Source: an uncultured Paracoccaceae bacterium
GTDB lineage: Bacteria > Pseudomonadota > Alphaproteobacteria > Rhodobacterales > Rhodobacteraceae
Direction of reading: 5' to 3'
Assembly (NCBI GenBank): GCA_947494675.1
Contig: CANLVP010000003.1
Coordinates: forward strand, 722,001-786,000
Length of the DNA stretch: 64,000 nucleotides
Position 1 is the first letter of the stretch, and each line of letters opens with the position of its first letter. Below are positions 25,958-63,598 of this stretch, in pieces. The position numbers were made by a program, and so were the translations under genes. A model generated the notes under the pieces. That model was not told the origin of the DNA, made no database searches, and was given only the letters and a program-made list of their open reading frames with translations.

Positions 25958-28168
25958 ATGGCCTACGCCCAGACCGACAAGCGCGAGATTTCGGACGCCG
26001 CCTATCTGTCCAACCCGGCCCCCGACGTGCGCAGCCGCGAAAAACTGGAAGGCGGCCGCGCCTTTGTGATGAAGACCGACTTTGAACCCGCAGGCGACCA
26101 GCCCACGGCGATCAAGGAACTGACCGCAGGTATCCTGTCAGGCGAACGTGACCAAGTGCTGCTGGGCGCCACCGGCACCGGCAAGACCTTCACCATGGCC
26201 AAGCTGATTGAGGAAACCCAGCGCCCCGCCATCATCCTTGCCCCCAACAAGACATTGGCCGCCCAGCTTTATGGCGAATTCAAAGGCTTCTTTCCCGACA
26301 ACGCCGTAGAATATTTCGTCAGCTACTACGACTATTATCAGCCCGAAGCCTATGTCGCCCGCTCCGACACCTACATCGAAAAAGAAAGCCAGATTAACGA
26401 ACAGATCGACCGCATGCGCCACTCGGCCACGCGGGCGCTGTTGGAACGCGACGATGTGATCATCGTGGCATCCGTATCCTGCATCTACGGTATCGGCTCG
26501 GTCGAAACCTACGGCGCGATGACGCAGGATATTCACGTCGGCAAGATGTATGACCAGCGCAAGATCATGGCCGATTTGATCGCGCAGCAATACCGCCGTA
26601 ACGATCAGGCCTTTCAGCGCGGGTCCTTCCGCGTGCGCGGCGATAGCCTCGAGGTTTGGCCCGCCCACCTTGATGACCGCGCGTGGAAACTGTCATTTTT
26701 TGGCGAAGAGCTTGAAAGCATCACCGAATTTGACCCGCTGACGGGCGAGAAAACCGACACCTTTGACAAGGTCCGCATCTACGCGAATTCTCACTACGTC
26801 ACGCCCAAGCCCACGATGCAGCAGGCCGTGATCGGCATCAAAAAGGAACTGCGCATCCGGCTCGATCAACTGGTCGCTGACGGAAAATTGCTTGAGGCAC
26901 AGCGGCTGGAACAGCGCACCAACTTTGATCTGGAAATGCTGGAGGCGACAGGCGTCTGCAACGGCATCGAAAACTATTCGCGCTATCTGACGGGCCGGGC
27001 ACCGGGTGAACCACCCCCCACCTTGTTTGAATTTATCCCCGACAACGCCATCGTCTTTGCCGACGAAAGCCACGTCTCCGTGCCGCAAATCGGCGGCATG
27101 TATAAGGGCGACTACCGGCGCAAATTCACGCTGGCCGAACACGGGTTCCGCCTGCCATCCTGCATGGATAACCGCCCGCTCAAGTTTGAGGAATGGGACG
27201 CCATGCGCCCGCAATCGGTCTTTGTCTCTGCGACCCCGGCGTCGTGGGAGATTGAGCAGACCGGCGGCGTTTTTACAGAACAAGTCATCCGCCCCACCGG
27301 CCTCTTGGACCCGCAGGTCGAAATCCGCCCGGTTGAAATGCAGGTCGATGATCTGCTGGATGAGGTCCGCAAAGTCGCCGCTGACGGCTACCGCACGCTT
27401 TGCACCACACTGACCAAGCGCATGGCCGAAGACCTCACCGAATATATGCACGAACAGGGCATCCGCGTGCGCTACATGCACTCTGACATCGACACGATCG
27501 AGCGGATCGAAATCCTGCGCGATCTGCGTCTTGGGGCCTTTGACGTGCTGATCGGCATCAACCTTTTGCGCGAGGGATTGGACATCCCCGAATGCGGGCT
27601 GGTGGCCATTCTGGACGCGGACAAAGAAGGGTTCCTGCGGTCAGAAACTTCGCTGGTGCAGACGATTGGCCGCGCCGCGCGGAACGCCGATGGCCGCGTG
27701 ATCATGTATGCCGACCGGATCACCGGATCGATGGAACGCGCCCTGAAAGAGACTGAGCGCCGCCGCACCAAGCAGATGGCCTATAACGTCGAACACGGCA
27801 TCACGCCCGAGACGGTCAAAAAGAACGTCGAGGATATTCTGGCGGGCCTCTACAAAGGCGACACCGATCAGGCGCGTGTGACCACGAAGATCGACAGCAA
27901 GCAGGCCGGTTCGAATATTGAGGCTGTGATGGAAGGCCTGCGGACAGACATGCGCAAAGCCGCCGAGAACCTGGAGTTCGAAGAAGCCGCCCGCCTGCGG
28001 GATGAGCTGAAGCGCTTGGAAACGGTCGAACTCACCCTCGCCGACGACCCCCTCGCGCGGCAATTTGCCGTGGATAAGGCGGTTGATGATGCGCAGAAAT
28101 CCTCGGGCCGTTCGACCATGGGCCGTGGCGGCATGCGCGGGGGCGTCAAGCGTCGCGGCAAACGGTAG
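25958..28168 (+). CDS. uvrB: Excinuclease ABC subunit B
   Basis: 736 aa. Walker A is [11 protein letters not shown]; the beta-hairpin region is [14 protein letters not shown]; helicase motifs include [10 protein letters not shown] and SATPASWE; the C-terminal UvrC-interacting UVR motif is [28 protein letters not shown]. UvrB verifies DNA damage and recruits UvrC for dual incision. The N terminus is extended by about 30 residues relative to E. coli, as usual in alphaproteobacteria. AAAGGA lies 10 bases before the ATG. The stop TAG is formed within a REP-like GTAGG head. Confidence 0.97.
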
Positions 28169-28220
28169 GGTGGGCAATCTGCCCGCCACTCGGGCCGGTG
28201 GGCAAATTGCCCAGCCTACG
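28165..28220. repeat. Inverted pair of REP-like hairpins between uvrB and the RAYT gene
   Basis: The first hairpin (28165-28187) starts GTAGGGTGGGCA and closes with TGCCCGCC. The second (28195-28220) has arms GGGCAA and TTGCCC and ends CCTACG, i.e. GTAGG on the minus strand. The heads face outward, as in BIME-type REP pairs. The uvrB stop (28166-28168) and the RAYT stop (28216-28218) are both the TAG of GTAGG. Confidence 0.85.
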
Positions 28221-28716: not shown

Positions 28717-28739
28717 GTAGGGTGGGCAATTTGCCCACC
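28717..28739. repeat. REP-like hairpin upstream of the RAYT gene
   Basis: A GTAG head is followed by the perfect palindrome GGTGGGCAA-T-TTGCCCACC (28721-28739). It lies 34 bases upstream of the RAYT start, completing the bracket with 28165-28220. Confidence 0.85.
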
Positions 28740-58184: not shown

Positions 58185-58297
58185 GACATTCCTCCCGCCC
58201 GGTGGTCATTCTCGCGCTCCTCCCGATTGCGATTTGATGCCTTGGGCTGTTGACAAGCGTAAGTGAGTCGCAGTTTAGTATCAATATCCAAAACAAA

Positions 58298-58314
58298 GTT
58301 TCAAATAATGAAAC
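58298..58314. promoter_or_regulatory. IclR operator candidate
   Basis: GTTTCAAATAATGAAAC is a 6-bp inverted repeat with a 5-bp AT centre, in the divergent region between iclR and the binding-protein gene. Size and symmetry match known IclR-family operators. Confidence 0.55.
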
Positions 58315-58349
58315 CTGTTTTGACCATGGGAGCATTTAGGGAGGATACC

Positions 58350-59609
58350 ATGCATTCCATTCTCAAGACGTCGCTTGCGGCGTTGGTTGCCGCTGGCGTG
58401 GCGACAACTGCATCCGCTGACGGCCACGGCCTGTCGGGCGAGTTGCGCATCATTTCGGACATGTCGAACCCTGCACCGCGCGCGGTGATGGAAAAGCTCG
58501 CTGCGGACTTTGACGCGATGCACGACGACCTGACCGTGGACCTGACCATCGTTGACCGCGAAGCGTGGAAGACACAGATCCGCAACGCACTGGGCGCTAA
58601 CCCACCGGACGTTGTGAACTGGTACGCGGCGACACGTATGACACCATACGTCGATGCGGGCCTGTTCATGGACATCTCTGACCTGTGGGAAGACCCCGCA
58701 ATGGAAGGTCTGGCATCCACAAAAGGTGCGATGACGCTGGATGGTAAGCAGTGGGGCGTGCCCTACACATACTACCAGTGGGGTGTTTACTACCGCAAAG
58801 ACATCTTCGAAGAGCTGGGTCTGGCCGAGCCTGCCACCTGGGAAGAAGAGCTGGCAAACTGTCAGGTCATCATCGACAGTGGTCGCAAGTGCTACACCAT
58901 CGGGTCCAAGTTCCTTTGGACTGCAGGCGGTTGGTTCGACTACATCAACAGCCGCACAAACGGTTATGACTTCCACATCCAGCTGGCCAATGGCGAAGTT
59001 GAGTGGACAGATGATCGCGTGCGTCAGACTTTCGCCAACTGGCGTCAGCTGATCGACATGGGCGCCTTTATCGACGACCACCAGTCCTACAGCTGGCAGG
59101 AAGCCATGCCGTTCATGGTTGACGGCGAAGCCACCGCCTATCTGATGGGTAACTTCTCTGTCGCGGCGTTCCGTGACGGTGGCCTGACGGACGATCAGCT
59201 GGACTTCTACCAGTTCCCAACGATCAACCCTGACGTCGCACCAGCAGAAGACGCGCCAACGGATACGTTCCACATCGCCTCTGGCGCACAGAACGTGGAC
59301 GCGGCCAAAGCGTTCCTGCTTTACGTGACCTCGCCTGAAGTTCAGTCCGAGATCAACGGCGGCGATGCGCTGGGCCAATTGCCTGTGAACGCAGCAGCAA
59401 GCGTTTCTGATGACAAGTTCATTCAGGAAGGTTTCGAGATGCTGTCGAACAACGCATCCGGCGGCATCATGCAGTTCTTTGACCGTGACTTCCCTGCCGA
59501 GATGGCATCGGTTGGCATGGAAGGCCTGCAGGAGTTCATGGTGTTCCCAGACAATCTGGACGACATCCTGGCCCGTCTGGAAGAAGCACGTCAGCGCATC
59601 TACCAGTAA
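58350..59609 (+). CDS. Sugar ABC transporter periplasmic binding protein
   Basis: 419 aa from the ATG at 58350 (GGGAGG 6 bases upstream). The Sec signal is MHSILKTSLAALVAAGVATTASA. The mature part is a family-1 extracellular solute-binding protein: LRIISDMSNPAPRAVMEKLAADFDAMHDDLTVDLTIVDREAWKTQIRNAL, a hinge, and FHIASGAQNVDAAKAFLLYVTSPEVQSEING. Codon usage is strongly biased, as in highly expressed genes. Ligand probably an alpha-galactoside, from the linked GH36 enzyme. Confidence 0.92.
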   Translation: MHSILKTSLAALVAAGVATTASADGHGLSGELRIISDMSNPAPRAVMEKLAADFDAMHDDLTVDLTIVDREAWKTQIRNALGANPPDVVNWYAATRMTPYVDAGLFMDISDLWEDPAMEGLASTKGAMTLDGKQWGVPYTYYQWGVYYRKDIFEELGLAEPATWEEELANCQVIIDSGRKCYTIGSKFLWTAGGWFDYINSRTNGYDFHIQLANGEVEWTDDRVRQTFANWRQLIDMGAFIDDHQSYSWQEAMPFMVDGEATAYLMGNFSVAAFRDGGLTDDQLDFYQFPTINPDVAPAEDAPTDTFHIASGAQNVDAAKAFLLYVTSPEVQSEINGGDALGQLPVNAAASVSDDKFIQEGFEMLSNNASGGIMQFFDRDFPAEMASVGMEGLQEFMVFPDNLDDILARLEEARQRIYQ

Positions 59610-59622
59610 GTCTTGACTAAAG

Positions 59623-59647
59623 GGGTGGGCAGCATTGCCCACCCTAC
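59623..59647. repeat. REP-like hairpin between binding-protein and permease genes
   Basis: GGGTGGGCA and TGCCCACCC are perfect 9-bp arms with a 4-nt loop, followed by TAC (GTAGGG on the minus strand). It sits 14 bases after the binding-protein stop, inside the ABC operon, the same place where malE-malF carries REP elements that protect upstream mRNA. Confidence 0.85.
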
Positions 59648-59715
59648 CCCCAACAACCCATCCGCAAGCCCCACCAACGGGTTTTCGCATGTGTTGACCG
59701 CGAGGGAGGAAGACC

Positions 59716-60660
59716 ATGTCATCCGCAACGACAAACGGGGCACGCGCCGAGCGTGGCTGGTACAAGCGCAACGAGATTGCGATCACGCCGTGGCTGTTTC
59801 TGGCGCCCGCGATGTTGTTCTTTGCGGTCTATGTGATCATCCCAATCGGCCAGTCGTTCTGGATTTCGTTCCACCAATGGGACGGTCTGGGCGAGGCGAC
59901 ATGGGTCGGCACCGCCAACTATGAACGCCTCTTGGGCATTGGCGAGCAGAACATGGACCGCAAGTTTGAGGTGTCGTTCTGGAACAACCTCAAATGGCTG
60001 GTGCTTTATCTGTTGGCGATCCCGATGGGGCTGTTTATCTCGCTTTTCCTGAACCAGACGGTGACGGGCATCCGGCTTTATAAGTCGCTCTTTTTCTTTC
60101 CTTTCGTGATCTCCCAGGTCGTCGTTGGCCTGGTGTTCAGCTGGTTCTATCTGCCCAATAACGGCCTGTTCGATCAAATTGTCGGCCTTGTGGGCATCGA
60201 CATCAAAGGCGGCATGCTGGGCAATCCCAACACCGCGACCTATGGCATCATCGCCGCCGGCCTATGGCCGCAGACGGCCTATTGCATGATCCTGTATCTC
60301 ACGGGCCTCAACGCAGTTGACCCCGAACAGGTAGAGGCTGCGCGGCTGGACGGGGCCAAGGGCCGCAAGATGCTTTGGTATGTGATCCTACCGCAGTTGA
60401 AGCCCGCGACCTTCATCGCCTTTGTGGTGACCATCATCGGCGCACTACGTTCCTTTGACCTGATCAGCGTCATGACAAACGGTGGTCCATTCGGGTCCAC
60501 CCGGGTCTTGAGCTTCTTCATGTTCGAGGAATCGCTGTCAGAGTTCGGGTTCCGCATGGGCTATGGCGCCGCGATCGCGGTGGTGCTCTTCTTCATCATG
60601 CTCTTCTTCATCGTCTACTTCCTGTGGTCGATGTACCAAGACGAAAAGGGAGGGCGCTAA
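59716..60660 (+). CDS. Sugar ABC transporter permease (MalF/UgpA type)
   Basis: 314 aa with six transmembrane helices and the EAA loop EAARLDGAKGRKMLWYVILPQLKPA that contacts the ATPase. The N terminus PWLFLAPAMLFFAVYVIIPIGQSFWISF is typical of the family. GGGAGG precedes the ATG. It pairs with the next gene, whose start is one base after this stop. Confidence 0.93.
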   Translation: MSSATTNGARAERGWYKRNEIAITPWLFLAPAMLFFAVYVIIPIGQSFWISFHQWDGLGEATWVGTANYERLLGIGEQNMDRKFEVSFWNNLKWLVLYLLAIPMGLFISLFLNQTVTGIRLYKSLFFFPFVISQVVVGLVFSWFYLPNNGLFDQIVGLVGIDIKGGMLGNPNTATYGIIAAGLWPQTAYCMILYLTGLNAVDPEQVEAARLDGAKGRKMLWYVILPQLKPATFIAFVVTIIGALRSFDLISVMTNGGPFGSTRVLSFFMFEESLSEFGFRMGYGAAIAVVLFFIMLFFIVYFLWSMYQDEKGGR

Positions 60661-60661
60661 G

Positions 60662-61510
60662 ATGTTTCCACGTCCGATCCAACAACAAAGCCCGGCCCGT
60701 CAGGCGACCTATCAGGCGCTCTTGCCGCTGGCGCTGGTCGTCTGGTTGCTGCCGCTGATTGCCGTGTTCATCTTTTCGATCAAGCCTGACGCAGATTTTG
60801 TCAGCGGCAATTTCTGGGGCATTCCGTCTTCGTTTGAGATGTTCAACAACTACGGCAAGGTGTTCTTTGAATCGAACATGCCGCGGTATCTGTTCAATTC
60901 ATTGCTGATCACAGTGCCCACGGTCATCGGGGCCGTGGCCCTGTCGGCCATGGCGGGTTTTGCGCTGGGCATCTACCGGTTCAAAGGTAATCTGCTGATC
61001 TTTTTCATGTTCATCGCGGGCAACTTTGTCCCGTTCCAAATCCTCATGGTCCCTGTGCGCGATCTGACGATTGGCTTGGGCCTTTATGACACGATCACCG
61101 GGCTGGTGCTGTTCCATGTGGCGTTCCAAACCGGGTTCTGCACGCTCTTTATGCGCAACTTTATCCGCGCCCTGCCGTTCCCGCTGATCGAGGCGGCACG
61201 GGTCGAAGGTATCTCAGAAATCCGCATATTCTGGTATGTGGTCCTGCCCCTGATGAAGCCTGCTTTGGCTGCACTGGCGGTGCTGATCTTTACCTTTATC
61301 TGGAACGATTATTTCTGGGCCGTCGTGCTGACCCAAGGGCCGGATGCGCAGCCGGTCACGGCTGGCATTACAGAGTTCAACTCTCAGTTCCGCGCGGCCT
61401 ATCATTTGATGAGCGCAGGTTCGATTGTGGCTGCCTTGCCGCCGGTCGCCATGTTCTTTTTGATGCAAAAGCATTTCATCGCTGGCCTGACGCTTGGCGC
61501 CGTAAAGTAA
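60662..61510 (+). CDS. Sugar ABC transporter permease (MalG/UgpE type)
   Basis: 282 aa with six helices. The EAA loop is EAARVEGISEIRIFWYVVLPLMKPALAALAVL and the C terminus FLMQKHFIAGLTLGAVK is the hallmark of MalG-type permeases. Start ATG 60662 follows GGGAGG located within the preceding gene. Confidence 0.93.
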   Translation: MFPRPIQQQSPARQATYQALLPLALVVWLLPLIAVFIFSIKPDADFVSGNFWGIPSSFEMFNNYGKVFFESNMPRYLFNSLLITVPTVIGAVALSAMAGFALGIYRFKGNLLIFFMFIAGNFVPFQILMVPVRDLTIGLGLYDTITGLVLFHVAFQTGFCTLFMRNFIRALPFPLIEAARVEGISEIRIFWYVVLPLMKPALAALAVLIFTFIWNDYFWAVVLTQGPDAQPVTAGITEFNSQFRAAYHLMSAGSIVAALPPVAMFFLMQKHFIAGLTLGAVK

Positions 61511-61516
61511 GACGAC

Positions 61517-63598
61517 ATGACACGACAATATCGCCTCGACGATGGCCGACAGACGCTTGTTCTGGCGGCGCACAATGACCGCCTGCCAGAGGTTGTTTAT
61601 TGGGGCCCAGCGCTGCCAGCGGATGAGGATTTGGCAGTGTTGCAGGCGGCCCATGCCATCGACGTCACGGGTGGGATGCTGGATGAAAACCCGCCTCTGT
61701 CGCTTTGCCCCGAGGCCACGCGCAGTTTTCCGGGCCAACCCGGTCTGATCCTGCGCGATACGGACGGCACGCCGCTTTTGCCCAAGTTCTGCTTTGCGTC
61801 AGAGGATCACGCAGGCGGGCTGACACTTTCGTATGATGACACCGAGAATGGGCTGACGCTGACATTCACATTCCGGCCTGATCCCGACACCCATGTCATC
61901 ACCTGCCAGACGGTGCTGGATGCCACCCGGCCAGTGCATTTGCATTGGCTCGCGGCACCCGTTTTGCCCGGCCCGCAGCAATCGGACGAGATGATTGATT
62001 TCTCGGGCCGCTGGTGTGGCGAATTTCAGACCAACCGCACCGCATGGTCCGCTGGCATCCGCTACCGCGAGAACCGCACGGGCCGCACCGGACATGAGCA
62101 TTTCCCCGGTCTGATCGTGCCTTGTACAGGGGCCACCAACACCCGTGGAGAGGCGTACGGGTTCCACTACGGCTGGTCCGGTGGACACCGGATGGTCGCC
62201 GAAGAGCTGCCCGATGGCCGTCGCCAGATCCAATGGGGTCATGCGGCCCGGATGGAAACCGCGGCCGCGACGCAATTCAAGACCGCGCCGCTTTATATCA
62301 CTTATTCCGAAACTGGCCTGAACGGCTGCGCAACGGCGTTCCAGCGGCATCTGCGCGACCGGATCGTGACTTGGCCCAAGCCATCGGTGCAGCGGCCTGT
62401 GCATTACAACTGCTGGGAAGCGGTCTATTTCGATCACAAGCTGCCAGTGCTGCAAGACATTGCAAGCCGCGCTGCTGATCTGGGGGCCGAGCGTTTCGTG
62501 CTGGATGACGGCTGGTTCGGGAACCGTGACGATGACACGCGGTCCCTGTCTGACTGGACGGTTGATCCGCGCAAATACCCTGACGGGCTTGGGCCCTTGA
62601 TCGATCATGTGCACCACTGCGGGATGACCTTTGGCATCTGGTTTGAGCCTGAGATGATCAATGAAGACAGCGACATCCACCGCGCCCATCCCGATTGGGT
62701 GCTGGGGTCCGAAGATCAGACCTTGGGCCGTCAGCAAAAGGCGCTGAACATGGCGCTGCCCGAGGTGCGCGACTACCTTTATGACCGGATGTCGGCGATC
62801 CTTGCCGCCCACGACATCGACTATATCAAGTGGGACCATAACCGCGTGCTGCCGATGCCTGACGCGGCCCAGACACGCGGGTCATATGCACTGATTGACC
62901 GGCTGCGTGCTGATTTTCCGATGGTGGAGATTGAGAGCTGCGCGTCAGGTGGTGGCCGTATCGACTTTGGCATCTTGCTGCGCACGCAGCGGGTCTGGCT
63001 GTCTGACAGCAATGACGCGTTGGAGCGTTTGCGCATCCAGCATGACGCCGCCCTTTTCCTGCCGCTCGCTGTCACAGGCAGCCATGTGGGCCCGCGCAAG
63101 TGCCACACCTCCGGTCGTATCTTTGACATCTCTTTCCGCGCCTGGGTCGCGGCCCAGCGCCACATGGGGTTTGAGATGGACCCGCGTGAGCTGGATGATC
63201 ACGAGGCGACTGTACTGCGCGAGGTCACGAGCTGGTGGAAAGCGAACCGCGATTGGATGCACGCGGCGGACATTCTGCGCCTTGATAGCGCTGATCCCGC
63301 CGTCTTGGCCGAGGAACAGCTGGCCCGCGATGGCAGTCGGTTCGTTGTCTTCGCAGGCAAAGCCGCGACCAGCGCACAGATCGCGCCGCGCCCCTTGCGG
63401 CTGACCGGGTTGGAGGCGGAGGCGCAATACCGCGTCCATCTGGCCAATCGCAACGCGGCACCCGCGCTGTCGCGGGGCAGCCCGGTGTTGAAATCGGACA
63501 GCGTGACGCTGTCGGGCCGCTACCTGATGCACCATGGCCTTGTGCTGCCTTGGTCCTTCCCCGACACGATGTGGGTGCTCGAGGGGGAACGCCTATGA
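61517..63598 (+). CDS. Alpha-galactosidase, GH36 family
   Basis: 693 aa, no signal peptide, so it hydrolyses imported alpha-galactosides in the cytoplasm. It has an N-terminal beta-supersandwich, a (beta/alpha)8 barrel with ERFVLDDGWFGNRDDD, the nucleophile Asp440 in YIKWDHNR and the acid/base Asp497 in LSDSNDA, and a C-terminal beta domain (ALSRGSPVLKSDSVTLSGRYLMHHGLVLPW). Melibiose or raffinose-type sugars are likely substrates. It is 6 bases after the permease gene and overlaps the next gene by ATGA. Confidence 0.93.
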   Translation: MTRQYRLDDGRQTLVLAAHNDRLPEVVYWGPALPADEDLAVLQAAHAIDVTGGMLDENPPLSLCPEATRSFPGQPGLILRDTDGTPLLPKFCFASEDHAGGLTLSYDDTENGLTLTFTFRPDPDTHVITCQTVLDATRPVHLHWLAAPVLPGPQQSDEMIDFSGRWCGEFQTNRTAWSAGIRYRENRTGRTGHEHFPGLIVPCTGATNTRGEAYGFHYGWSGGHRMVAEELPDGRRQIQWGHAARMETAAATQFKTAPLYITYSETGLNGCATAFQRHLRDRIVTWPKPSVQRPVHYNCWEAVYFDHKLPVLQDIASRAADLGAERFVLDDGWFGNRDDDTRSLSDWTVDPRKYPDGLGPLIDHVHHCGMTFGIWFEPEMINEDSDIHRAHPDWVLGSEDQTLGRQQKALNMALPEVRDYLYDRMSAILAAHDIDYIKWDHNRVLPMPDAAQTRGSYALIDRLRADFPMVEIESCASGGGRIDFGILLRTQRVWLSDSNDALERLRIQHDAALFLPLAVTGSHVGPRKCHTSGRIFDISFRAWVAAQRHMGFEMDPRELDDHEATVLREVTSWWKANRDWMHAADILRLDSADPAVLAEEQLARDGSRFVVFAGKAATSAQIAPRPLRLTGLEAEAQYRVHLANRNAAPALSRGSPVLKSDSVTLSGRYLMHHGLVLPWSFPDTMWVLEGERL

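Follow-up and report, generated by a model that had tools for sequence, protein, structure and literature searches.

In a sugar-uptake ABC operon, the genes of the binding protein and of the first permease are separated by a gap with a hairpin, H1, which is a copy of a GTAG-tagged REP. In the orthologous gaps that we compared, the conserved feature is the position of a hairpin and not the repeat. We read H1 as an interchangeable 3' barrier to mRNA decay of the malE–malF type, lying in a hairpin slot that is filled here by a GTAG-tagged REP, and put the probability of this reading at about 0.62.

The window, the whole stretch of 64,000 nt that was analysed, corresponds to positions 722001–786000 of contig C3 in the genome (3.9 Mb) of a marine bacterium related to the Rhodobacteraceae. 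The binding-protein gene shows its kinship with members of this family, including Pseudooctadecabacter, Octadecabacter, Loktanella and Yoonia. An IclR-type regulator gene and an ATPase gene are divergent to the operon, whose features are as follows.

58350–59609, plus strand: gene of the periplasmic solute-binding protein (SBP), 419 aa, at the head of the operon (open reading frame; SBP_bac_1, PF01547, E 2e-34)
59622–59645, plus strand: H1, intercistronic hairpin GGGGTGGGCA-GCAT-TGCCCACCCT (fold, repeat copies and orthologous gaps)
59624–59647, minus strand: GTAG-tagged REP unit GTAGGGTGGGCAATGCTGCCCACC, which is H1 read as a repeat (pattern matches)
59654–59696, plus strand: H2, a core at 59659–59691 with an outer CAAC/GUUG helix (covariation and covariance model)
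59702–59709, plus strand: Shine–Dalgarno-like GAGGGAGG upstream of permease gene 1 (read from the sequence)
59716–60660, plus strand: permease gene 1, ATG at 59716 (Pfam BPD_transp_1, E 1.7e-16)
60662–61510, plus strand: permease gene 2 (Pfam BPD_transp_1, E 2.2e-14)
61517–63598, plus strand: GH36 alpha-galactosidase gene (Pfam Melibiase, E 1.1e-101)

The SBP gene ends with the stop codon TAA at 59607–59609. It had been called highly codon-biased in a preliminary description of this DNA, which holds within the operon only: its effective codon number (39.0) is the lowest of the four genes (42.1 and 41.8 for the permeases, 45.6 for the galactosidase), but only the sixth lowest among the 29 genes scored of the 58 called in the window.

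H1 is a single unit that starts after 12 nt beyond the SBP stop, and its stem consists of nine Watson–Crick pairs plus a G–U pair, with no bulge. The preliminary description had placed a hairpin between the binding-protein and permease genes, and the sequence is as described there. The 116-nt segment 59605–59720 folds with a z-score of −2.33 (3 of 200 shuffles were equally good), and H1 is absent from the 25 longest among the 62 inverted repeats of the window. The sequence 3' of the stem, ACCCCCAACAAC, has no U-tract, so H1 does not have the form of an intrinsic terminator; the segment CUACCCCCAACAACCCAUCC behind it is C-rich and G-poor. A stable hairpin without a U-tract, set in the SBP/permease interval, has the layout of the malE–malF type, and the malE–malF-like niche suggested earlier is indeed occupied by a GTAG-tagged REP.

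Read on the minus strand, the repeat is GTAG-GGTGGGCA-loop-TGCCCACC. The letters CTAC at 59644–59647 are its GTAG tag (59647–59644), the last G of which is paired in the window copy. The perfect core palindrome is found at 38 sites in the genome, compared with none for the reversed-pattern control, and 36 sites have a perfect tag together with perfect arms; the tag and these copies bear out the earlier identification as a REP element. In the window, GTAGGGTGGGC with at most one mismatch occurs six times including the H1 copy, against 0.92 expected. The congeners G001–G005 have 3, 0, 6, 6 and 6 tagged copies, respectively, and 14 of 101 genomes have any.

Neighbourhoods of REP copies were studied in stretches fetched around copies chosen by pattern match (up to three mismatches), with genes called from codon usage by a simple procedure of our own, and the figures describe this sample rather than the whole genome. 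Of the 44 copies, 17 lie between convergent and 25 between co-directional genes, one is divergent intergenic and one is inside a called gene. The distance to a gene 3' end could be measured for 42 copies and does not exceed 17 nt for 37 of them; by our own gene calls, the TAG of the tag supplies the stop codon in 15 of the 42, for example at 28165–28187 of the window and in loci L151 and L161. Because the sampled REPs generally adjoin gene 3' ends, a position right after a gene is unremarkable for a REP. Inverted dimers were also seen (e.g. L159, L176 and the copies at 28165 and 28197 of the window). The latter pair occupies 28165–28219, between convergent genes, and a third copy (28717–28739) lies past the next gene, between divergent genes. 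In genome G036, five tagged REPs are clustered at 859–1316 of contig C57, in the orientations + − + − −.

The repeat is thus a short palindrome that ends in GTAG, has many copies, is extragenic near gene 3' ends and forms inverted dimers, as in the GTAG-tagged REP superfamily. The window REP belongs to this superfamily, in which it is placed by its tag rather than by comparison of its stem with the published consensus families, of which there are 24 (PMC3733652). The superfamily as defined includes the Escherichia coli REPs, which are part of GTAG-3 (Di Nocera et al. 2013, PMC3733652). The proposal that the repeat family is independent was therefore too strong, although the stem is perfect and lacks the bulge of E. 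coli.

The copy nearest in sequence to that of the window is at 2497–2520 of locus L165 (contig C2, about 49.9 kb). It is located 16 nt past an SBP_bac_5 gene, with a permease gene following, and the two copies have 35 identical nucleotides, flanks included, a likeness that is perhaps due to gene conversion between the two slots. Among 19 REP-neighbouring genes scanned there are two further binding proteins, of other Pfam families (NMT1 and SBP_bac_8). We also considered that H1 is a native hairpin that has drifted into its present form. The stems GGGCGGGCC of related species, two compensated changes apart from the window stem, and the loop letters GAAT, common to G002 and G004, are compatible with drift. 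A repeat family is favoured by the tag, by the 38 copies and by the 35 nt shared with the other SBP slot, and drift is the less likely origin of H1.

A resident transposase was rejected as the source of the repeat: by Pfam there is no Y1_Tnp (RAYT, PF01797) gene in the same genome or in the five congeners, against 17 positive genomes among 101, and at 20 RAYT loci taken from other genomes the pattern G[TC]AGGG[TC]GGG has no match, leaving these loci without a REP-like flank. There may be a divergent RAYT beyond the reach of the Pfam model. The genomes G000, G025 and G036 are REP-rich members of the family in which no Y1_Tnp gene is detectable. A clean empty site as proof of mobility was likewise discarded, as in the one gap compared, that behind sucD, which holds a REP pair, the five congeners have other, longer sequence.

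A search of 61 genomes gave orthologues of the binding protein in 16, among them G000. With 80 named loci, the best of at least 586 confirmed by profile, this gives 96 gaps, of which 93 are distinct over their first 70 nt. A strong hairpin was defined as at least eight pairs and a score of at least 21 within 60 nt past the stop codon. By this definition 90 of the 93 distinct gaps have a strong hairpin, compared with 7 per cent of 930 shuffles, and it starts at a median of 10 nt past the stop (quartiles 8 and 14). The three others are those of G003 and G005, where the slot stem has seven pairs in the scoring, and of L145, where the stem is bulged; the definition is strict, but the replacement among congeners described below rests on the shorter stem. 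For the 80 named loci, the same definition gives 78 hairpins after the SBP stop, one in 240 coding windows and two in 80 before the matched start, which in 22 of the 80 loci is a few residues inside the gene.

The stems of these hairpins share no sequence. There are 78 distinct 8-nt arms among the 93, and the mean identity of the stem arms (0.381) is close to that expected from base composition (0.374). In 15 of the 93, at least four of the next eight nucleotides are T, and TTTT is present there in two; some of the hairpins resemble terminators, for example that of L062, CCCCTTTTT. GTAG-like tags are present at the best slot hairpin in eight of the 93, some of them doubtful (e.g. L146), a count that is blind to degenerate tags, as in G001, and to second-best hairpins. 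In Pseudooctadecabacter jejudonensis (L074) the slot hairpin, from 9 nt past the SBP stop, is tagged on both sides (GTGTAGGGCGGG...CCCGCCCTACAC). Palindromes of the form GCACCC...GGGTGC are found in the slots of L077, L083 and L087, with similar ones elsewhere; they were not retained as a third repeat family, the exact pattern having a single site in each of 3 genomes and none in the other 14 of the 17 searched. As far as these comparisons go, they speak for a functional slot that asks for a strong hairpin about 10 nt past the stop and shows no demand on its sequence. It seems that any hairpin can serve there if it is strong enough, mobile repeats being one source.

Turnover of the hairpin can be followed among close relatives. 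The SBP genes of G000, G001, G003, G004 and G005 are 89–91% identical in DNA between species pairs, and 99.3% between G003 and G005. The slots of G000, G004 and G001 have the same stem, GGGGTGGGCA...TGCCCACCC, with unlike flanks and the loops GCAT, GAAT and GCTT, respectively; in G001 the tag is decayed (ATAG) and the stem intact. This identity of stems in three congeners could be due to homogenisation among repeat copies rather than to selection. The slots of G003 and G005 are occupied by GGCGGGGTGAACCCCGCCCTAC, a second GTAG-tagged repeat, with a further hairpin behind it. Its core has 13 copies in the genome of G003 and 9 in that of G005, slot included, by a search pattern in which, of the four tag letters, only the final two were required. 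In G025, which belongs to a different genus, two inverted units of the second repeat occupy the slot, and the genome has 62 copies of its core. The slot of G002 has a non-REP hairpin, which is neither repeat. At least two GTAG REP families occupy the slot among the genomes compared. In the tree, G001 is grouped with G003 and G005 with moderate support (88/90), and therefore the second repeat has probably replaced the first in the slot of these two strains. The preliminary description had looked to sister strains lacking the REP for conservation: where the REP is absent an unrelated hairpin is present at the same place, so that it is the hairpin that is kept and not the REP.

Other slots in the same genome were surveyed with 23 binding-protein genes of two Pfam families (14 of PF01547 and 9 of PF00496), counting any co-directional next gene, permease or other. 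There are 22 such genes with a co-directional neighbour, and 16 of their gaps are at least 40 nt long (one of them, at 318 nt, being just beyond the control range). A strong hairpin is present in 15 of these 16 gaps, against 8 of 45 other co-directional gaps (Fisher p = 9.3e-8); the controls were gaps of 40–300 nt without a REP in the sequence sampled, 14 REP-bearing gaps having been set aside. REPs constitute 2 of the 15 hairpins, that of the window and that behind the SBP_bac_5 gene. The other six of the 22 genes, with gaps shorter than 40 nt, have no such hairpin, and hence not every ABC operon requires one.

The second hairpin, H2, lies between H1 and the Shine–Dalgarno-like sequence of permease gene 1, and its core is CAU-C-CG-C-AAG...CUU-U-CG-C-AUG. 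Of the 96 gaps, 45 have the motif by text search, 41 of them distinct. Pairing statistics were obtained for 38 of the 41 sequences, three irregular ones being left out. Core pairing amounts to 96.2 per cent of 418 cells against 86.4 per cent in shuffles, a level biased upwards by this omission and by the choice of sequences that resemble the motif. Two-sided changes, found in 38 cells against 10.6 in shuffles, are less open to this bias. The covariation score is 0.321 against 0.151 (at most 0.058 for slid controls), with the caveat that related sequences can exceed shuffles without structure. One pair is C–G in 27 sequences, U–A in 9 and G–C in 2, and is never broken. The first 1 × 1 mismatch is unpaired in 37 of the 38 (C.C in 32) and the second in all 38 (C.U in 35). 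In the outer CAAC/GUUG helix, 144 of 164 cells are paired in the 41 sequences, compared with a mean of 124 and a maximum of 135 in 2000 shuffles; the mismatch beneath this helix is weaker, being paired in 10 of the 41.

A covariance model of H2 matches the window at 59656–59701 (59.7 bits). With strict filters it has one match in the same genome at E ≤ 0.1, and 8 of 61 genomes have a match with E no higher than 2e-7, each in the same gap; weaker matches elsewhere have E-values of 1e-4 to 0.1. Among 93 loci (three duplicates removed) there are 48 sense-strand matches in the gap at E ≤ 0.05, those used to build the model matching by construction, and two further matches, a distant one in L100 and one on the opposite strand of the L102 site. 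Rfam gave no match at E up to 1 in 58200–61600 of the window, and none at the gathering score in 6 loci of the 93. The loop of H2 varies widely in length and its mismatches are kept. An internal promoter or a DNA operator was considered, and the variable loop and kept mismatches speak against an operator. We propose that H2 is a cis-acting RNA element that would mark the 5' end left on the permease segment by cleavage or would control permease translation. It looks like an undescribed covarying RNA element of Rhodobacteraceae sugar operons.

If H1 acts as a decay barrier, the SBP–permease mRNA would be cleaved by an endonuclease downstream of H1, and 3'–5' exonucleases would be halted there. 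The SBP mRNA would then outlive the permease mRNA and yield binding protein in excess, as in E. coli malE–malF and Rhodobacter puf. Transcription through the gap, cleavage, arrest of the exonucleases and the change in protein ratio are all inferred. In E. coli, five ABC operons, malEFG among them, keep the mRNA of the binding subunit longer (Dar and Sorek, PMC5927463), and of 34 gene pairs reported there with a stabilised 5' gene, 26 end at a stable hairpin without a U-tract (PMC5927463). The main competitor is partial termination at H1, intrinsic or Rho-assisted, which would lower transcription of the permease genes. The position and strength of H1 fit this, some orthologous hairpins have T-rich tails (15/93), and rut sites are C-rich and G-poor, a description that also fits CUACCCCCAACAACCCAUCC, so that this stretch could serve Rho. 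Both this stretch and the terminator-like orthologues count against the decay barrier, as does the moderate codon bias of the SBP gene. However, H1 is without a U-tract, only 2 of the 93 have TTTT, and termination would lower both permeases and the galactosidase further downstream. Because most of the hairpins have no T-rich tail, as in the decay-barrier profile of Dar and Sorek, the decay barrier is preferred and termination is considered unlikely.

The window copy could also be functionless, REPs simply landing beside gene ends or into existing hairpins. Landing near a 3' end is ordinary for them (37 of 42 within 17 nt, with the tag as stop in 15), and with about 40 copies for roughly 3,900 genes (estimated from genome size) one or two behind SBP genes would not be astonishing. 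Against this, 90 of 93 orthologous gaps have a hairpin whatever its sequence, and in G001 the stem has outlasted its tag; for these reasons the hairpin, if not its REP identity, seems constrained, and we regard neutrality as improbable. Rated lower still, and least probable of the four, is an effect on terminating ribosomes, which H1 would slow or rescue, tuning SBP translation or its coupling to the permease. The narrow spacing speaks for it, the median of 10 nt past the stop being about the reach of a terminating ribosome, and so does a precedent in E. coli, where an effect has been reported for REPs no more than about 15 nt from a stop codon; but its expected result is less SBP, contrary to the needs of ABC systems. 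We thus prefer the decay barrier to partial termination, neutrality and a ribosome effect, in that order.

A more tentative and rather doubtful reading makes the gap an RNA processing cassette of two parts. H1 would be a sequence-free niche, emptied and refilled over time, more than once by different mobile REP families, and would set the SBP/permease ratio. H2 would be an undescribed, operon-specific family of cis-acting RNAs, with a helix that is interrupted by conserved pyrimidine mismatches; acting through a protein or RNA partner, it would mark the point of cleavage or control translation of the permease. If this were true, mobile repeats would be standard spare parts for operon stoichiometry.

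It has long been asked whether REPs do anything or simply survive. The slot is an orthologous site open to comparison in many species, among which a hairpin is retained whereas its sequence, and even the family of repeat that it comes from, differs. Such a comparison of orthologous slots separates selection on the hairpin from inheritance of the repeat, and the differing slots are ready-made natural replacements for a stability assay. A search of the open-licence literature on Roseobacter, Rhodobacteraceae and Rhodobacterales repeats, RNA motifs and intercistronic hairpins found no earlier description of the H1 slot repeat or of H2, which is weak evidence of absence.

Compared with the GTAG superfamily, the window repeat has the same tag, a 9-bp stem, a short loop, inverted pairs, a location at 3' ends and tag-supplied stop codons. 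The siting habits reported for GTAG REPs are the same, at gene 3' ends of co-directional or convergent genes and often with the tag as stop codon (PMC3733652). The association with a RAYT, frequent in the superfamily but not constant, is missing, no Y1_Tnp having been found in the same genome or in the five congeners. With the E. coli REP/TnpAREP system the repeat shares a GTAG tetranucleotide beside the palindrome (PMC8266576). The stem of the E. coli type has a conserved bulge (PMC8266576), whereas that of the window is perfect, and no transposase of the TnpAREP kind was found.

The Rhodobacter puf decay-terminator stem-loop is likewise an alphaproteobacterial hairpin between genes of one operon; the window hairpin belongs to another operon, and the puf case has been shown experimentally. 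To our knowledge, the puf stem-loop is not a repeat. A further close parallel is malE–malF of E. coli, where the intercistronic structure is a REP. Both systems have a REP hairpin without a U-tract in the SBP/permease gap of an ABC sugar operon. The upstream mRNA is stabilised in malE–malF and would be so in the window; the window stem is different and perfect, that of E. coli bulged; and the window has one unit, 12 nt past the stop, followed by the covarying H2 before the permease gene.
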